Shown here in pieces: positions 614 through 33,375 of a DNA stretch of 33,375 nucleotides. The notes below the pieces were generated by a model. It did not search any database. It saw only the letters and a program-made list of their open reading frames with translations, and was not told the origin of the DNA. This DNA is from Thermoplasmatota archaeon. Its GTDB lineage: Archaea; Thermoplasmatota; JAQUQK01. Within the stretch, counting starts at the first letter, position 1. Each line of letters begins with the position of its first letter. The DNA lies in NCBI GenBank assembly GCA_028716125.1, contig JAQUQK010000002.1, forward strand, positions 1 through 33,375. The letters are read 5' to 3'. The translations under genes and the position numbers were made by a program.

Positions 614-793
614 GTGGGAGTACACAGGACAGATAAGTGGGTTGATAGGAAGATTGCCGAGAAGCAAGCCGAAATGACGTTGGATGGCTTGAAACCACAC
701 GAAAGAGACTCGGATGCGGCTCTGCGCGCCTTGCTTGAAGAAGGCGACGCCGCAATAGCCGAACTGAAACGCAGGGATGCCGAAAAACGATAA
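614..793 (+). CDS. Small hypothetical protein (GTG start, 59 aa)
   Basis: Continuous frame VGVHRTDKWVDRKIAEKQAEMTLDGLKPHERDSDAALRALLEEGDAAIAELKRRDAEKR*. Confidence 0.5.
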   Translation: MGVHRTDKWVDRKIAEKQAEMTLDGLKPHERDSDAALRALLEEGDAAIAELKRRDAEKR

Positions 794-1715
794 TCAATCA
801 TGGGGGAACCAACATGAAAACAGGAACCGAGAACCAAAAGGCAACGACAAAGACGGGGCAAGTACCCGCCGAGAACTCAATAGAAACGCGGGGGGCTTAA
901 TCGTGTGCGATTTCGTTTCTTGGATTGAAGCCAACGGCAAAAATTACTTCTTGACAGACGCCGAAGTATTTTCTGATGTCGGAAAGGAAAAATTAGAAGG
1001 CTCGAAACGCAGTGATTTCATCGGCCACGGGTCAATCAGAAAGTTTTACGGACTGATGAACGGCCACGAAGAAAAACAGGTAAGAAACTTTTGGGGCGAA
1101 AAAGCAAGACAGCACATTCCAGCAGAACTTCTTGCACTAGTAGATGATTTCGACAGAAACTTTGGGCGACTTTTCGAGACATCATTCGAGAACGACGATC
1201 TAACTTACCTTATCTCGCATGCGCCTGAAGCCTGGAAGAGCAAGGCATCGGCTCAGATTCTGAAGCAGAATCCTACCAACGACAACCTGCTTGACATCAT
1301 CTACAATGCGCCTGAAGCCTGGAAGAGCAAGGCATGGGCTCAGCTTCTGAAGCAGAATCCTACCAACGGAGAACTTGCTTACATCGTCAGGAATGCGCCT
1401 GAAGCCTGGAAGAGCAAGGCATGGGCTCAGCTTCTGAAGCAGAATCCTACCAACGGAGAACTTGCTTACATCGTCAGGAATGCGCCTGAAGCCTGGAAGA
1501 GCAAGGCATCGGCTCAGATTCTGAAGCAGAATCCTACCAACGGAGAACTTGCTTACATCGTCAGGAATGCGCCTGAAGCCTGGAAGAGCAAGGCATGGGC
1601 TCAGCTTCTGAAGCAGAATCCTACCAACGACAACCTGCTTGACATCATCTACAATGCGCCTGAAGCCTGGAAACAGAAAGCGCAGAAAATCTTGGACGAG
1701 CGCAACACGAAATAA
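777..1715 (+). CDS. Helical tandem-repeat protein (29-aa repeats); true start uncertain (777, GTG 903, or 814 via a frameshift at the G6 tract)
   Basis: ORF track; repeats NAPEAWKSKAWAQLLKQNPTNGELAYIVR. Confidence 0.7.
   Translation: MPKNDNQSWGNQHENRNREPKGNDKDGASTRRELNRNAGGLIVCDFVSWIEANGKNYFLTDAEVFSDVGKEKLEGSKRSDFIGHGSIRKFYGLMNGHEEKQVRNFWGEKARQHIPAELLALVDDFDRNFGRLFETSFENDDLTYLISHAPEAWKSKASAQILKQNPTNDNLLDIIYNAPEAWKSKAWAQLLKQNPTNGELAYIVRNAPEAWKSKAWAQLLKQNPTNGELAYIVRNAPEAWKSKASAQILKQNPTNGELAYIVRNAPEAWKSKAWAQLLKQNPTNDNLLDIIYNAPEAWKQKAQKILDERNTK
1221..1680 (+). repeat. 87-bp tandem repeats (about 5.3 units) inside the CDS
   Basis: gcgcctgaagcctgg at 1221, 1308 and every 87 bp after. Confidence 0.92.
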
Positions 1716-1745
1716 GCAACACCTTTCTCTTTTTTCATTTATCGC

Positions 1746-1814
1746 GGTGGCGGGAGTTCGTCGGACGGTTCCCCGGCGCAACTCTTCGGGGTTCAAGACC
1801 CCGCGCCACCACCA
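1746..1814 (+). ncRNA. tRNA-like element with encoded CCA and no D arm
   Basis: GGTGGCG(1746-1752)/CGCCACC(1804-1810) 7-bp acceptor; CGGGG-TTCAAGA-CCCCG T arm (1787-1803); A73 + CCA (1811-1814); single hairpin GAGTTCGTCGG-acggttcc-CCGGCG(c)AACTC replaces D/anticodon arms. Confidence 0.6.
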
Positions 1815-1834
1815 AGGAACCAAGAGGTAAGTGT

Positions 1835-2479
1835 ATGGATAATGTAAATGTCCCGGGAATGAACCAAATTCAACCGCAAATGCCAAGCCTCCGCCTGCCG
1901 TTCCAATCCAAAATCGACCAATTCAAGTTCCCAACAATCCCATCTCTCCGCTTCGGCTCAGCCACCGAATACGACCCTTATTTTGACCAGAACGAAGGCC
2001 AGTGGCACTGCAAAATCAAGGGAAAGAACCACGGATGCGAAGCCTTCGATGAATTCCACAGAAAAGGCCAGCACATAGAATGCCGCCACATCCTGCACAG
2101 GATTAACGACCGCCTGATCGCAAAGGGGCTGCTTCAGGACCTTCTCGCGCAGCGCCGCCGTGCAAAGGACACAATGACCCAGGGCGAGGCAAGGGAACTT
2201 ACAAAGAACTCCCCGGAAGGCCAGCTCCTACGCTACCTCTTCGAGGGGTACTTCTCCGACCATGCTGGCGAGGAAATCACGATTGACGACGTACACGAAT
2301 ACCTCGGCCCCGCCATTGCGGACAATAATCCGATGATGGGTTCTATCACGTCATGGCTTGCGCGGGACGGAATAATCGAGCCTGTGAAGTCCAGCGATGG
2401 CTATCAGAAGTTCGTAAAGAGCACCAGGGAAGCCAGAAACGGAAGCGCAATGCGCGTCTGGCGGTATCGGGAGGCGTAA
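1835..2479 (+). CDS. Zn-binding (SWIM-like Cys/His) protein with C-terminal wHTH-like region
   Basis: WHCKIKGKNHGCEAFDEFHRKGQHIECRH motif; RBS gaggt upstream. Confidence 0.65.
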   Translation: MDNVNVPGMNQIQPQMPSLRLPFQSKIDQFKFPTIPSLRFGSATEYDPYFDQNEGQWHCKIKGKNHGCEAFDEFHRKGQHIECRHILHRINDRLIAKGLLQDLLAQRRRAKDTMTQGEARELTKNSPEGQLLRYLFEGYFSDHAGEEITIDDVHEYLGPAIADNNPMMGSITSWLARDGIIEPVKSSDGYQKFVKSTREARNGSAMRVWRYREA

Positions 2480-3740: not shown

Positions 3741-3932
3741 ATGGCATCCTGTCACTATTTCGAATCGAATCTGGCCCTGGGAGGGGAAGGGAAACCAAGG
3801 CCTAAAGTCGGCGGCAAGCGAAAGGGCGGGAGTCCTGAATTTTTCGCATCTGCATCGGAATCCCATGGCTTGCTTACCCTCGCCCCGCGTAATGTCGCCG
3901 GCTTCTCTTTCTCTAGAATGGCGGTGCTGTAA
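3741..3932 (+). CDS. Hypothetical protein (63 aa)
   Basis: ORF abutting both neighbours. Confidence 0.4.
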   Translation: MASCHYFESNLALGGEGKPRPKVGGKRKGGSPEFFASASESHGLLTLAPRNVAGFSFSRMAVL

Positions 3933-13297: not shown

Positions 13298-14394
13298 ACG
13301 AGGACCAGCTGAAGTCGCTCTCAAGCGACCCCCAGAAATGGACGCCAGAGCAGCGAAAGGAAGTGAACCGCGGCGAATCGCAGATTTATGAAGAGAACCA
13401 AGTGATAGAGCAGCGAACTATAACATGGCGCGACATAGCCGCGGCATACATAAGGCGGCACGGTGCAAGCAAACTCTGGGGCATGATTGGCATAGCTGCA
13501 ATGGAAATAGGCCTCATATTGGCGGCAATAATTTCTCAGGGCGATCCATTCTGGTTCCTGATGCTTGGCGCGGCTAACGTCCCATATCTGCTGGTATCGC
13601 AGTTCACGAAGAAATTCGAAGCGGCCGTGATGGCGAGGGATGCAAGATACGTTCTCTGCTATTCTGTCGCCGGAAAGGAGATACGATCATATTACAACGA
13701 CTGGAAGTTCAACGGCGCGCAATCGTTCAAATGCCACAAGACCGAGCTTGCTATGTTCGAATATTCCCAGGAGCTGGAAACGCTCGGGTACTTGCGCATA
13801 GATGGCCCGCGGGATTCGAAGCCATACGCCGGCATGAACATAATGATCGCGGATTACGTAAACCAGAACTCTATGCTTGTGATCCTGCCGCCATACGCAG
13901 AACTATCGAATCTCAGCTACCTGCTGGGCGCGGTTCCGGAAAACGATGAATGGATTGCCCAGATAGACGCAAGTGACGTTGATCTGAAGGAAAAGATAAG
14001 CTATCTTTCGCAGCGCATCAGAGAAATCGACGCAATGCCGGAATCATCATTCATCGGAAAATCCAAGCAGGAAGTGAAAATCGAGCTGATAAAGCAGCAG
14101 CTTTCCGCGCAGCGCGACAGGCTGAAGTTCAAGAAGCGCATCGAGAAGATAACCACCGACTACACGATGTACATGCAGTCGCAGAATGCAAGGCTCAAGT
14201 TCGAGAACGCGCAGCTCAGGATAGGATTTGCGACCGCCACTGATGTATATACCGCTGCAAGGATAAACGAGTTCTTCGGAAAGCCTCAGCCGCCGCGAGT
14301 AAGGGAGGAAACAATTACACTTGAGAAGACATTCGGATCTGATGTGCTGATTCCGGGGCTGAAGAAGTATTCAGGCGAAACAAAGCCAGCTTAA
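13288..14394 (+). CDS. Membrane protein with cytoplasmic coiled-coil domain
   Basis: 368-aa ORF, TM hairpin at ~70-110 aa. Confidence 0.75.
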   Translation: MAMNEDQLKSLSSDPQKWTPEQRKEVNRGESQIYEENQVIEQRTITWRDIAAAYIRRHGASKLWGMIGIAAMEIGLILAAIISQGDPFWFLMLGAANVPYLLVSQFTKKFEAAVMARDARYVLCYSVAGKEIRSYYNDWKFNGAQSFKCHKTELAMFEYSQELETLGYLRIDGPRDSKPYAGMNIMIADYVNQNSMLVILPPYAELSNLSYLLGAVPENDEWIAQIDASDVDLKEKISYLSQRIREIDAMPESSFIGKSKQEVKIELIKQQLSAQRDRLKFKKRIEKITTDYTMYMQSQNARLKFENAQLRIGFATATDVYTAARINEFFGKPQPPRVREETITLEKTFGSDVLIPGLKKYSGETKPA

Positions 14395-14408
14395 TCTCTT
14401 CTTTTTTC

Positions 14409-14442
14409 GTATACACAATTTTTATATTAGTTATGTGTATAC
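14409..14442 (+). promoter_or_regulatory. Type-Q promoter: GTATACACA-N16-TGTGTATAC flanking TATA
   Basis: 9-bp inverted repeat; same element at 19045-19078. Confidence 0.8.
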
Positions 14443-14455
14443 ATATTAGGATAGG

Positions 14456-17471: not shown

Positions 17472-17520
17472 TTTCTGACACACCCATTCTTTTATAAATT
17501 CATCCCATTCTTTTTTAATG
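17472..17520 (+). promoter_or_regulatory. Type-P promoter cassette copy 1
   Basis: tttctgacacacccattcttttataaattcatcccattcttttttaatg; near-identical copies at 20142, 21520, 26841. Confidence 0.85.
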
Positions 17521-17525
17521 ATATC

Positions 17526-18632: not shown

Positions 18633-19030
18633 GTGAAACGAATTCAGATGAAAAGCAGAAGGTCTTGATAACGAACATAGCCGTAGGGGCAATACTCGTG
18701 TTCTTCAGCATGGTAGCCGTAGTAGGTGGATTCTCGATAATGCAGAATCCCACGGATCCAATTGTGTACACGATACTGCTGCTGCCAATGGCAATAGTAG
18801 TGAATACGATAGTCATATGGAGAAACATGCTCCCTGGAAAGCAGATACTGGCAATGGTGAGTGGGTCTGCCGCAATGGTCATGGGGATTGGGATGCTACA
18901 GTTCGTGAAGATCGACGTCAACTCTGTGACAATAATGGCATCTGTCATCTTCCTGGTTCCGTCGGCATATCTGTTCAGCGTCGCATTCGGCAAGCCGTTT
19001 TGGCCATTCAAGGTCAAAAAAGCGGCTTAA
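18629..19030 (+). CDS. Four-TM membrane protein
   Basis: 133-aa ORF, ATGA overlap. Confidence 0.75.
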   Translation: MSETNSDEKQKVLITNIAVGAILVFFSMVAVVGGFSIMQNPTDPIVYTILLLPMAIVVNTIVIWRNMLPGKQILAMVSGSAAMVMGIGMLQFVKIDVNSVTIMASVIFLVPSAYLFSVAFGKPFWPFKVKKAA

Positions 19031-19044
19031 TCTCTTCTTTTTTC

Positions 19045-19078
19045 GTATACACAATTTTTATATTATTTCTGTGTATAC
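19045..19078 (+). promoter_or_regulatory. Type-Q promoter copy 2: GTATACACA-N16-TGTGTATAC
   Basis: Identical arms and spacing to 14409-14442. Confidence 0.8.
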
Positions 19079-19086
19079 ATTATTGC

Positions 19087-20128: not shown

Positions 20129-20141
20129 TACACTTTTTTTA

Positions 20142-20190
20142 TTTCTGACACACCCATTCTTTTATAAATTCATCTCATTCTTGTAGAATG
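20142..20190 (+). promoter_or_regulatory. Type-P promoter cassette copy 2
   Basis: tttctgacacacccattcttttataaattcatctcattcttgtagaatg. Confidence 0.85.
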
Positions 20191-21489: not shown

Positions 21490-21519
21490 TCCGCGGCACT
21501 TTTTCTTCATCTTTTTCCT

Positions 21520-21568
21520 TTTCTGACACACCCATTCTTTTATAAATTCATCTCATTCTTTTTTAATG
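21520..21568 (+). promoter_or_regulatory. Type-P promoter cassette copy 3
   Basis: tttctgacacacccattcttttataaattcatctcattcttttttaatg; ATG of gene lies in the cassette end. Confidence 0.85.
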
Positions 21569-22735
21569 ATGGAAGCTTTCCCGAACATGGTGTCCAAATC
21601 CGGTTTTTTCCTCGCCATGCAGCAGCGCGCAGAGGAGCGCCTTAATGAGGCCAAAGAAGCGCGCCTAGCATTCAAAAGGTCATTCTCATATCTGAAATTC
21701 TGGGCGAAGGTGGGCGGCTGGATTGCAATGAACATAAGGCCGGTTATAGTGATATTCCTCATTTTCATGCTTGTGTCGACTGTCGTGTGCATGGGCTCGG
21801 CTTACGGCCCGATGGCCATAATGGATGTAGGCGCAACCGGCTGCCTGCTGTACAATTCGGGCGCAATCGTGCTAGAGACCGCAATAAACATCCCTCTGCA
21901 GATCGCACGGGTAATTGCAATGGGAACAATGAACATCACAAACGCATTCGTGGATGGTGTTCTTGGGCCAATTGTTGAAACCATAAATAAGATTCCTGGA
22001 GCTAGCTTGACCGTTCCACTTCCTTTTGAGTATTATGTACAGCCAAATGCTCCGGTTTCATTGTCGTTCCTAGAGCCAGACTATCCGGCAGTGCGCGCTG
22101 CTGCCGAACAGGGGCGATACTTGAAGGCATTTAAGGAAGCATTTCACTTCTTTACCATATCTGCAACCGGCGCACATGTGAGAACCAATTCTCTAATCTC
22201 GGAAATTGGTATTGGCCTTGATGTGAAATTCCTCGGAGGGTCAGGAAGCTATATGAAAGAATTTGAAAACATCACAAAATTACCCGTTGAAGAAGAAAAT
22301 GGAATGAAAAAGGCAGGAAATATTTACGATACTGTATTAAAGGCAAGCGAACTGTCGAACGAATATGGAAACTGGATGAAAAAGATGGCAGGTGAGCAGT
22401 TTGTTGTTTGGTTTACTGCATCAAATCCACATCCCAAAGCAGATGAAAAGATAACGTTCTATGACAACACATACATAGCCAGAAGGCCGCTTAAGACCGA
22501 ATATTTCTGGGACTTTGGCGACGATTCAACGTCAACAGAGAAGAACCCCACACACACATATAATGCACCAGACACATACGAAGTTATGCATGTTGTAAAG
22601 ATAACTGTAATTTATCACCCATATACGAATATTAGCATATTGGGGTGGCGTTTACCTATACAACCTCTGGCATTTATTAGGCAAGCTACAGAGTTCGAAA
22701 CGACAATGACTGCAGTAATAGAGGTGACAACTTGA
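21566..22735 (+). CDS. Membrane-anchored surface protein with C-terminal PKD domain
   Basis: YFWDFGDDSTSTEKNPTHTYNAPDTYEV PKD signature. Confidence 0.8.
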   Translation: MMEAFPNMVSKSGFFLAMQQRAEERLNEAKEARLAFKRSFSYLKFWAKVGGWIAMNIRPVIVIFLIFMLVSTVVCMGSAYGPMAIMDVGATGCLLYNSGAIVLETAINIPLQIARVIAMGTMNITNAFVDGVLGPIVETINKIPGASLTVPLPFEYYVQPNAPVSLSFLEPDYPAVRAAAEQGRYLKAFKEAFHFFTISATGAHVRTNSLISEIGIGLDVKFLGGSGSYMKEFENITKLPVEEENGMKKAGNIYDTVLKASELSNEYGNWMKKMAGEQFVVWFTASNPHPKADEKITFYDNTYIARRPLKTEYFWDFGDDSTSTEKNPTHTYNAPDTYEVMHVVKITVIYHPYTNISILGWRLPIQPLAFIRQATEFETTMTAVIEVTT

Positions 22736-26828: not shown

Positions 26829-26840
26829 CTCCTTTTTCCT

Positions 26841-26889
26841 TTTCTGACACACCCATTCTTTTATAAATTCATCTCATTCTTGTAGAATG
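26841..26889 (+). promoter_or_regulatory. Type-P promoter cassette copy 4
   Basis: tttctgacacacccattcttttataaattcatctcattcttgtagaatg. Confidence 0.85.
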
Positions 26890-26894
26890 ATATC

Positions 26895-32700: not shown

Positions 32701-33375
32701 ATGGCACGTATGCAATCACAAAGCAATATTACAACAGCAAGACAGGGGCATATCAGCAGACACTTAACGACAATGTCGCGGTCAGCAATGATTTGTTCTA
32801 CTGGATCCGCGGCTACGACCTCGAAGACATCATAATTAACATCGATGCCAGCAACGCTTCACTAGCAAATCTAATATTGAATGTCGATATAAATGTAGAT
32901 GCGACCAATGCGACAATAGGAGCACTGATTACTAACATCCAAAACAAAATCGAGGTGGTTAATTCAACCGTTGGCGAAATCTATTCGAACATGATTGTAA
33001 ATTTCGACATCGTGAACTCCAGCATAGACTGGCTTAACAACACCCTGCTTCTGAAGTTCGACATAACAAATTCAAACATAGATTCCCTTGAAAACTCAGT
33101 CCTCGTGGCCATCGACCTTTCAGAAACGAATCTTACCACATTGTCAAACACGATCATAAATGCCTTGTCGGTCGTGGACTCCGTAGTGGACACGATAAAT
33201 TCTTACCAGGTCACCCACTTTGCAATCACCGATGCAAAGATAAATTCCCTTAACAACACCCTGCTTCTGAAGTTCGACATAACAAATTCAAACATAGATT
33301 CCCTTGAAAACTCAGTCCTCGTGGCCATCGACCTTTCAGAAACGAATCTTACCACATTGTCAAACACGATCATAA
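29715..33375 (+). CDS. Very large lipoprotein-like adhesin/fibre protein with beta-propeller repeats and F5/8C-like region; continues past window end (not in ORF track)
   Basis: Open frame from ATG 29715; MQSKTARNRVACLILTAMLLSGC lipobox; WxGSxWASNASIVSG repeats; AWIKFDAGSVKNISSCRIYWG...YIKLII. Confidence 0.85.
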   Translation, partial: MQSKTARNRVACLILTAMLLSGCFTISETASASALSNIYGILQTVTSPSNILNANIRFMAQTGEYRLISSLIDLLNTSSLISFSINDRSIEPVRIRFVKSFIDSKFALPAFYIDNKEQAIIIGSDYYEIRFTPVIDTWSVKVNESAVPFDISKILAGTRTFGKGSASSILLSRAEGMWIRLSQHDGNGGIFTFMPATGRSNYGCPVSFSKSWLSATFGITHPFFEWGDSKPRMLLKYTENATHYTITPEHFSVIGVHEAATGIITNGGRILCKEPVDDLFSTPAMVTASSEMGNITKGLSTTEGYPAPTLFDMNGILYAIVAGAGGSYSGWLYTNSGWISNTAIVSGISTPAEHSGITVFCKGGIWYCIVTVGNSGTAFYGFKWMGSTWASNASIVSGLISSQSHTKPSVFQMDGIYYLILGSAEGIYSGFEWMGSTWASNASIVSGLIAGSGWNYPSVFYKDSNWYAIIGKYNAISGFKWMGSTWASNASIVSGISISGSPQYPSVFYIYGTYCIIIGSWQKFYGYVWEGSAWTKNWLIKTNAKDDSTSTGWSPLPSNEPSAWIKFDAGSVKNISSCRIYWGSEVAFHPARYHIQVSSDNSTFYTVVTETSAPPASAWKKYGWLNYTNVRYIKLIIDQHGSSGTRVFECDYYQCSAFIPSRTSGLISEIDSCSFSTSYAYFASTTIKIPISTKVTGIVSVKNNAGNIYATNVTAINLLINNTYYYDAVNQFVYIGTNNVSQNKIINWTVSALYGSSFNITIAPKLVDVGFPLHCQGTIGDADGKMISGMMAYTDIYSGTEKIASGPIWNCTGGNYLSLIDTTSIAPGPYSIKISFTDSGTGTTFSTTKPIYIGKRDVTWDPDDPQYSSAWLYYTFFDSNSGTQLRDDIYKVYISSDATIEAADRVKGGKFPTYINQELFLQIRDYWDNTIYPAGGGTYQFRISNGETYLDIPIALRSFKVKNTNSSTVYFTMTQNSIRHSEWILPQEITSWYIGDGTYAITKQYYNSKTGAYQQTLNDNVAVSNDLFYWIRGYDLEDIIINIDASNASLANLILNVDINVDATNATIGALITNIQNKIEVVNSTVGEIYSNMIVNFDIVNSSIDWLNNTLLLKFDITNSNIDSLENSVLVAIDLSETNLTTLSNTIINALSVVDSVVDTINSYQVTHFAITDAKINSLNNTLLLKFDITNSNIDSLENSVLVAIDLSETNLTTLSNTII
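30855..31200 (+). repeat. Three near-identical ~54-bp segments (30855, 31002, 31146) in propeller blades
   Basis: ggattcaaatggatgggatccacatgggcttcaaatgcatccatcgtttctggt. Confidence 0.85.
33033..33375 (+). repeat. 216-bp tandem repeat; 33033-33159 identical to 33249-33375 (127 bp, cut by window end)
   Basis: cttaacaacaccctgcttctgaagttcg...cacgatcataa. Confidence 0.9.

Follow-up and report, generated by a model that had tools for sequence, protein, structure and literature searches.

A tRNA-like element with a single-hairpin body and an encoded CCA in an intercistronic gap of an archaeal mobile element

Architecture of the locus

The stretch analysed (the window, 33,375 nt) covers the initial 33.4 kb of a 45.7-kb contig binned with a Thermoplasmatota archaeon, and is followed by 100 N at 33376-33475. 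Two co-directional plus-strand genes near its start are separated by a gap of 119 nt, which holds a tRNA-like element beginning 30 nt after the upstream stop codon and ending 20 nt ahead of the next start codon (Table 1). Its placement in the 5′ leader of the 1835 gene, on the same strand, was borne out. The tandem protein repeat of the upstream gene (APEAWKSKAWAQLLKQNPTN...) is a unit of about 29 aa, encoded by near-identical 87-bp DNA repeats at 1191-1672. A T-rich stretch, which follows the upstream stop codon and precedes the element, may act as a weak terminator. Neither this stretch nor the sequence directly upstream of the element holds a clear copy of the TATA-type promoters seen on the contig, and no terminator was found downstream of the element. 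The Shine-Dalgarno-like sequence follows the end of the element by 8 nt. Since the 1835 gene has such a sequence, unlike the genes right behind the repeated TATA-type promoters of the contig, it looks like an internal operon gene.

Table 1. Features of the tRNA-like element and its surroundings (window coordinates).
Feature	Position	Strand	Description or basis
Upstream gene	777..1715	+	312 aa; tandem protein repeat
T-rich stretch between upstream stop codon and element	1724..1739	+	direct reading
tRNA-like element, CCA included	1746..1814	+	69 nt; sequence reading, fold, Rfam scan, simulation
Acceptor stem, 5′ strand GGTGGCG	1746..1752	+	direct reading, fold; G1746 is the predicted RNase P 5′ end
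Single 11-bp hairpin replacing D and anticodon arms	1754..1784	+	fold; stem 1754-1764 with 1773-1778 and 1780-1784, loop 1765-1772, bulge C1779
T arm, 5-bp stem and TTCAAGA loop	1787..1803	+	direct reading, fold; stem CGGGG 1787-1791 with CCCCG 1799-1803, loop 1792-1798
Acceptor stem, 3′ strand CGCCACC	1804..1810	+	direct reading, fold
Discriminator A and encoded CCA	1811..1814	+	direct reading; A73 at 1811, CCA at 1812-1814
Shine-Dalgarno-like AGAGGT	1823..1828	+	direct reading; 6 nt before the ATG at 1835
Downstream (1835) gene	1835..2479	+	214 aa; no recognised family, no homologue found

The acceptor stem is Watson-Crick paired at all seven positions and the T stem at all five. Exactly 34 nt separate the 5′ acceptor strand from the T stem, and these contain a hairpin with the strands GAGTTCGTCGG and CCGGCG-c-AACTC (11 bp, one bulged C, 8-nt loop). 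The initial annotation had described both stems, the TTCAAGA loop, A73, the CCA and a 34-nt spacing folding as one hairpin instead of D and anticodon arms; direct reading and folding confirmed each of these. The predicted fold of the 69-nt element was a three-way junction of −40.2 kcal/mol (z = −4.3), and none of 200 shuffles was as good.

Chance expectation and classification

In 20 Mb of simulated sequence (Markov-1, window composition, middle allowed 13-42 nt) a strict Watson-Crick acceptor stem combined with a TTCRANN T arm was found 0 times, against once in the window. A back-of-envelope product gave about 2 × 10−4 such elements expected per window, counting both strands and leaving the CCA uncounted. 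An origin of the acceptor and T-arm element by chance is excluded. The middle hairpin taken alone had −16.0 kcal/mol against a shuffle mean of −9.0, with 51 of 5000 shuffles as low (about 1 in 100). This is just moderately above chance, so the firm evidence lies in the acceptor and T arms.

The element was not called as a tRNA by ARAGORN or by the Rfam tRNA model RF00005. With these results, and with one hairpin in place of both the D and anticodon arms, classification as a canonical tRNA was rejected. The best match in a permissive Rfam scan was mascRNA-menRNA (RF01684), where membership was rejected at 27.7 bits against a gathering threshold of 42.5. Membership of the tmRNA family (RF00023) was likewise rejected, at 10.2 bits against a gathering threshold of 47 and with a U-A pair at 3-70 rather than G3-U70.

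The contig and its host bin

The contig encodes DNA methyltransferases, an AAA ATPase, long membrane- or surface-type proteins and an integrase, a tyrosine recombinase closest to the archaeal XerA model, which lies at the opposite end of the contig from the element. Two families of repeated leaders of 50-60 nt with archaeal TATA-type boxes (TTTTATAAAT, TTTTTATATTA) stand shortly before gene starts and are probably the promoters with which the mobile element itself drives genes that have short leaders or none. The near-identical repeats upstream of gene starts, of 50-65 nt, lie at 14379-14444 and 19016-19080 for the first family and at 17472-17522, 20133-20190, 21511-21570 and 26832-26891 for the second. 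Among the tRNA genes of the bin, several measure 100-138 nt and were interpreted as carrying introns, which is an archaeal trait; CCA is encoded in roughly a third of the bin's tRNAs. From the gene content, the archaeal promoters and the intron-type tRNAs of the bin, the contig is identified as a mobile element, either a virus or a plasmid, that was binned with the archaeon.

Among the genomes searched, the nearest relatives of the bin belonged to the same phylum only. The archaeal RNase P RNA model found no match in the 78%-complete bin, a family that passes its own cut-off in just 4 of 14 control genomes. A complete tRNA-Leu (TAA) lies on the same contig at 25224-25312; its CCA is not encoded, and a run of T comes after it. 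Long near-identical repeats at window positions 33024-33375 and L049 3476-4905 are split by the 100-N gap and belong to a giant surface-type protein gene.

Searches for homologues

No exact copy of the element was found elsewhere in the genome, and a covariance model of the element run over 393 genomes of the phylum returned no homologue; its best identifiable matches there were ordinary tRNAs at 29.7 bits and below, and the remainder look weak or due to chance. A first 17-mer scan of IMG/VR gave 15 matches, none with a tRNA-like structure. For the 1835 protein, no homologue was found in 99 relatives, IMG/VR or phage records, and a structure search by sequence gave no match. The ATPase, one further protein and the integrase were without homologues in IMG/VR or phage records, the ATPase having weak AAA-level matches alone in the relatives.

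Truncated tRNA-like elements in viral and cellular sequence

A pattern combining the same acceptor with a shorter middle and the T loop of a tRNA was run over IMG/VR and matched three contigs (L070, L071 and L072), every T stem being perfect. The L070 element (3818-3869) lies 20 nt upstream of a portal gene, that of L071 between a terminase gene and a portal-like one, and that of L072 (3294-3344) in the leader of an SSB-like gene, the gene names having been assigned by reading translations and not by family search. The terminase-portal gap is occupied by tRNA-like elements in two unrelated phages. Over 264 Gb of bacterial and archaeal genomes the same pattern gave 12 matches; the T stem was perfect in two of these, one being a copy of L070 in a prophage and the other a bona fide tRNA-Cys.

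When the acceptor was relaxed to GGTGNNG, at least 121 viral matches were obtained among the loci retrieved, and at least 30 had perfect acceptor and T stems, against an estimated one or so expected by chance. Some of the GGTGNNG matches are near-normal small tRNAs and several are just 44-52 nt long. Elements of 44-52 nt with perfect acceptor and T arms were seen in L130 (5895-5938, about 20 nt before a nuclease-like gene), L171 (4066-4109), L100 (6631-6675), L169 and L175, besides L070 and L072, and several sit in gaps directly before a gene. Two further acceptor types with encoded CCA gave more truncated forms, of 50-69 nt, among the matches listed.

One family of 67-nt phage tRNA-like elements (GGTGTGGTAGCGCAGTGGCAGACGCGGGCA...) has a shortened anticodon region (L087:691-757, L098:11356-11422, L136, L148:252-318, L149, L180, L190), and in several contigs stands just before a gene start. 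The two sides of a flanking stem that encloses these elements change together across contigs (TTGGCTT/AAGCCAA, GTGCTT/AAGCAC, AATGTTT/AAGCATT), which suggests that at least this family is under selection as RNA. The truncated tRNA-like elements between phage genes were missed by the tRNA finder. They are analogues, not homologues, of the present element, and many retain a D arm. In the literature, no description of a class of truncated tRNA-like elements in viruses was found beyond the remark on HF1-group haloviruses discussed below.

Interpretation

What the analysis shows is the structure of the element, its non-randomness, its site between two genes of the same direction and the lack of a standard tRNA fold. 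On this anatomy we tentatively favour, as the best explanation, an intercistronic t-element-like processing signal in a polycistronic mRNA of the archaeal mobile element. Transcription would run from the upstream gene through the element into the downstream gene, and host RNase P would take the stacked acceptor and T arms for a pre-tRNA and cut just before G1746, separating the upstream message from the downstream one. Because the CCA is already encoded here, 3′ cleavage by tRNase Z may be disfavoured, as would be expected from the general properties of this enzyme, and the 69-nt structure would then stay on the 1835 mRNA as a protective 5′ cap that might stabilize it.

Several observations count for a processing signal. 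The perfect acceptor, T arm and RCCA are the tRNA parts that RNase P recognises, the enzyme being known to recognise the acceptor/T stack and to accept the non-tRNA substrates tmRNA, plant-virus tRNA-like structures, phage M3 RNA and phage C4 antisense RNA (PMC11143913). The anticodon-less elements with perfect arms in viral leader positions (L070, L071, L072, L130) were counted on the same side, as were the site of the element between two same-strand genes, the internal-operon look of the 1835 gene, the Haloferax t-element before 5S rRNA, and the cellular control, where a perfect T stem occurred in just two of 12 matches. Counted against it were that the searches gave no homologue of the element or of the 1835 gene, that the precedents come from Haloferax and bacteria, not from the present lineage, and that the phage cases are analogues.

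The element could instead be a recently eroded tRNA gene, picked up by the mobile element, that lost about 7 nt from its D/anticodon region and has an accidental hairpin and no function. Archaeal viruses are known to carry partial tRNAs, such as the tRNA-Arg with a 28-nt deletion in some members of the HF1 group (PMC7230728); the complete tRNA-Leu on the same contig, the single known copy of the element and the modest statistics of the middle hairpin are in keeping with this. A decaying tRNA is, however, expected to lose stem pairs at random, whereas all 12 acceptor/T pairs are Watson-Crick and the CCA is intact, and no parental tRNA was recognisable among the tRNAs of the bin or in the 393 genomes of the phylum. 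We consider erosion unlikely. The initial argument against random erosion is supported, not proved, by these intact pairs, the retained CCA and the single-hairpin middle.

A free small RNA cut at both ends that mimics a tRNA in trans, for instance to divert tRNA-binding enzymes or the host's defence nucleases, is less likely and in our judgement improbable. The encoded CCA and A73 would give it a ready 3′ end, a mobile element could profit from decoying tRNA-directed enzymes, and the nearest Rfam family, mascRNA, is itself an excised tRNA-like RNA; but neither a contig-type promoter directly upstream nor a terminator downstream was found, the element is very tightly coupled to the ribosome-binding site of the next gene, and it has no anticodon and, with U-A at 3-70, no G3-U70 alanine signal. 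Similarly less likely, and rather improbable, is an unprocessed cis-regulatory leader, for instance a structure before the 1835 gene that controls translation and binds a tRNA-binding protein: a simple hairpin would suffice for this, leaving the exact tRNA features (T-loop consensus, 7 + 5 bp, A73-CCA) unexplained, even though a stable fold (−40 kcal/mol) does end 8 nt before the Shine-Dalgarno sequence. Also less likely, and very improbable, is an integrase attachment site with the 3′ half of the element as a copy of a host tRNA 3′ end used in integration, for although a XerA-like recombinase is encoded on the contig and HF1-group archaeal viruses carry partial tRNAs as attP beside the integrase, attP needs the 3′ half alone and yet the 5′ acceptor strand is perfectly complementary, the 3′ half is shared with no tRNA in the 78%-complete bin, and in a linear contig the integrase is some 43 kb distant, no terminal overlap having been found to suggest a circular one.

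A processing signal combines two of the three options originally put forward, tRNA mimic and regulatory leader, which are retained in this form; the third, an eroded tRNA, is less favoured. If the processing signal is real, tRNA processing has been co-opted for the shaping of mRNAs by a mobile element from an archaeal lineage about which little is known, and such co-option would also account for the truncated tRNA-like elements between phage genes, which might otherwise be dismissed as broken tRNAs. A broader proposal, speculative and somewhat doubtful, is that viruses and mobile elements of bacteria and archaea have repeatedly and independently placed anticodon-less tRNA-like elements before particular genes as mRNA-processing signals that use host RNase P, the present element being an archaeal case with a fully remodelled single-hairpin body.

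Comparison with known systems

The tRNA-like RNAs of the mascRNA and MEN beta type are like the element in having an acceptor and a T arm with a degenerate middle, but they are vertebrate RNAs, the element scores below the gathering threshold of their family, and mascRNA keeps a small D-like hairpin and does not encode its CCA. The resemblance is by convergence. The MALAT1 and MEN beta transcripts are cut by RNase P (PMC4919922). The tRNA-like domain of tmRNA also has an acceptor and T arm, with a long helix where the anticodon arm would be; compared with tmRNA, the element is far shorter and has neither a tag reading frame nor G3-U70.

A tRNA-Pro call that lies upstream of the gene for the large terminase is conserved throughout the HF1 group of haloviruses and has been described as aberrant (PMC7230728). 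In the Halophage HF1 record (L085:37858-37928) this tRNA-Pro is annotated on the strand opposite to terL; the acceptor stem, an anticodon loop TTTGGGA and the consensus T arm GCCGGTTCGACTCCGGC read properly on the terL strand, where the feature ends 17 nt before the terL start, and the annotation appears to be on the wrong strand. At 71 nt, with D- and anticodon-like arms and no CCA, it is unlike the present element and parallels it in position more than in structure. The phage RNase P substrates M3 RNA of phi80 and C4 antisense RNA of P1/P7 are similarly phage-encoded and non-tRNA (PMC11143913), but belong to another host domain and are likened here by description, not by sequence.

The t-elements of Haloferax volcanii are archaeal and lie, like the present element, directly upstream of another RNA; the t-element fold is recognised by RNase P and tRNase Z (PMC4326828), and tRNase Z processes the tRNA-like t-element that immediately precedes 5S rRNA (PMC4946936). 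Cleavage of archaeal t-elements by the two enzymes releases the flanking RNAs in vivo (PMC4326828, PMC4946936). The present element differs in residing in a mobile element, before a protein gene, with an encoded CCA, a single middle hairpin and a predicted cleavage; its structure and position fit an archaeal t-element, and it would share one transcript with its flanking genes.
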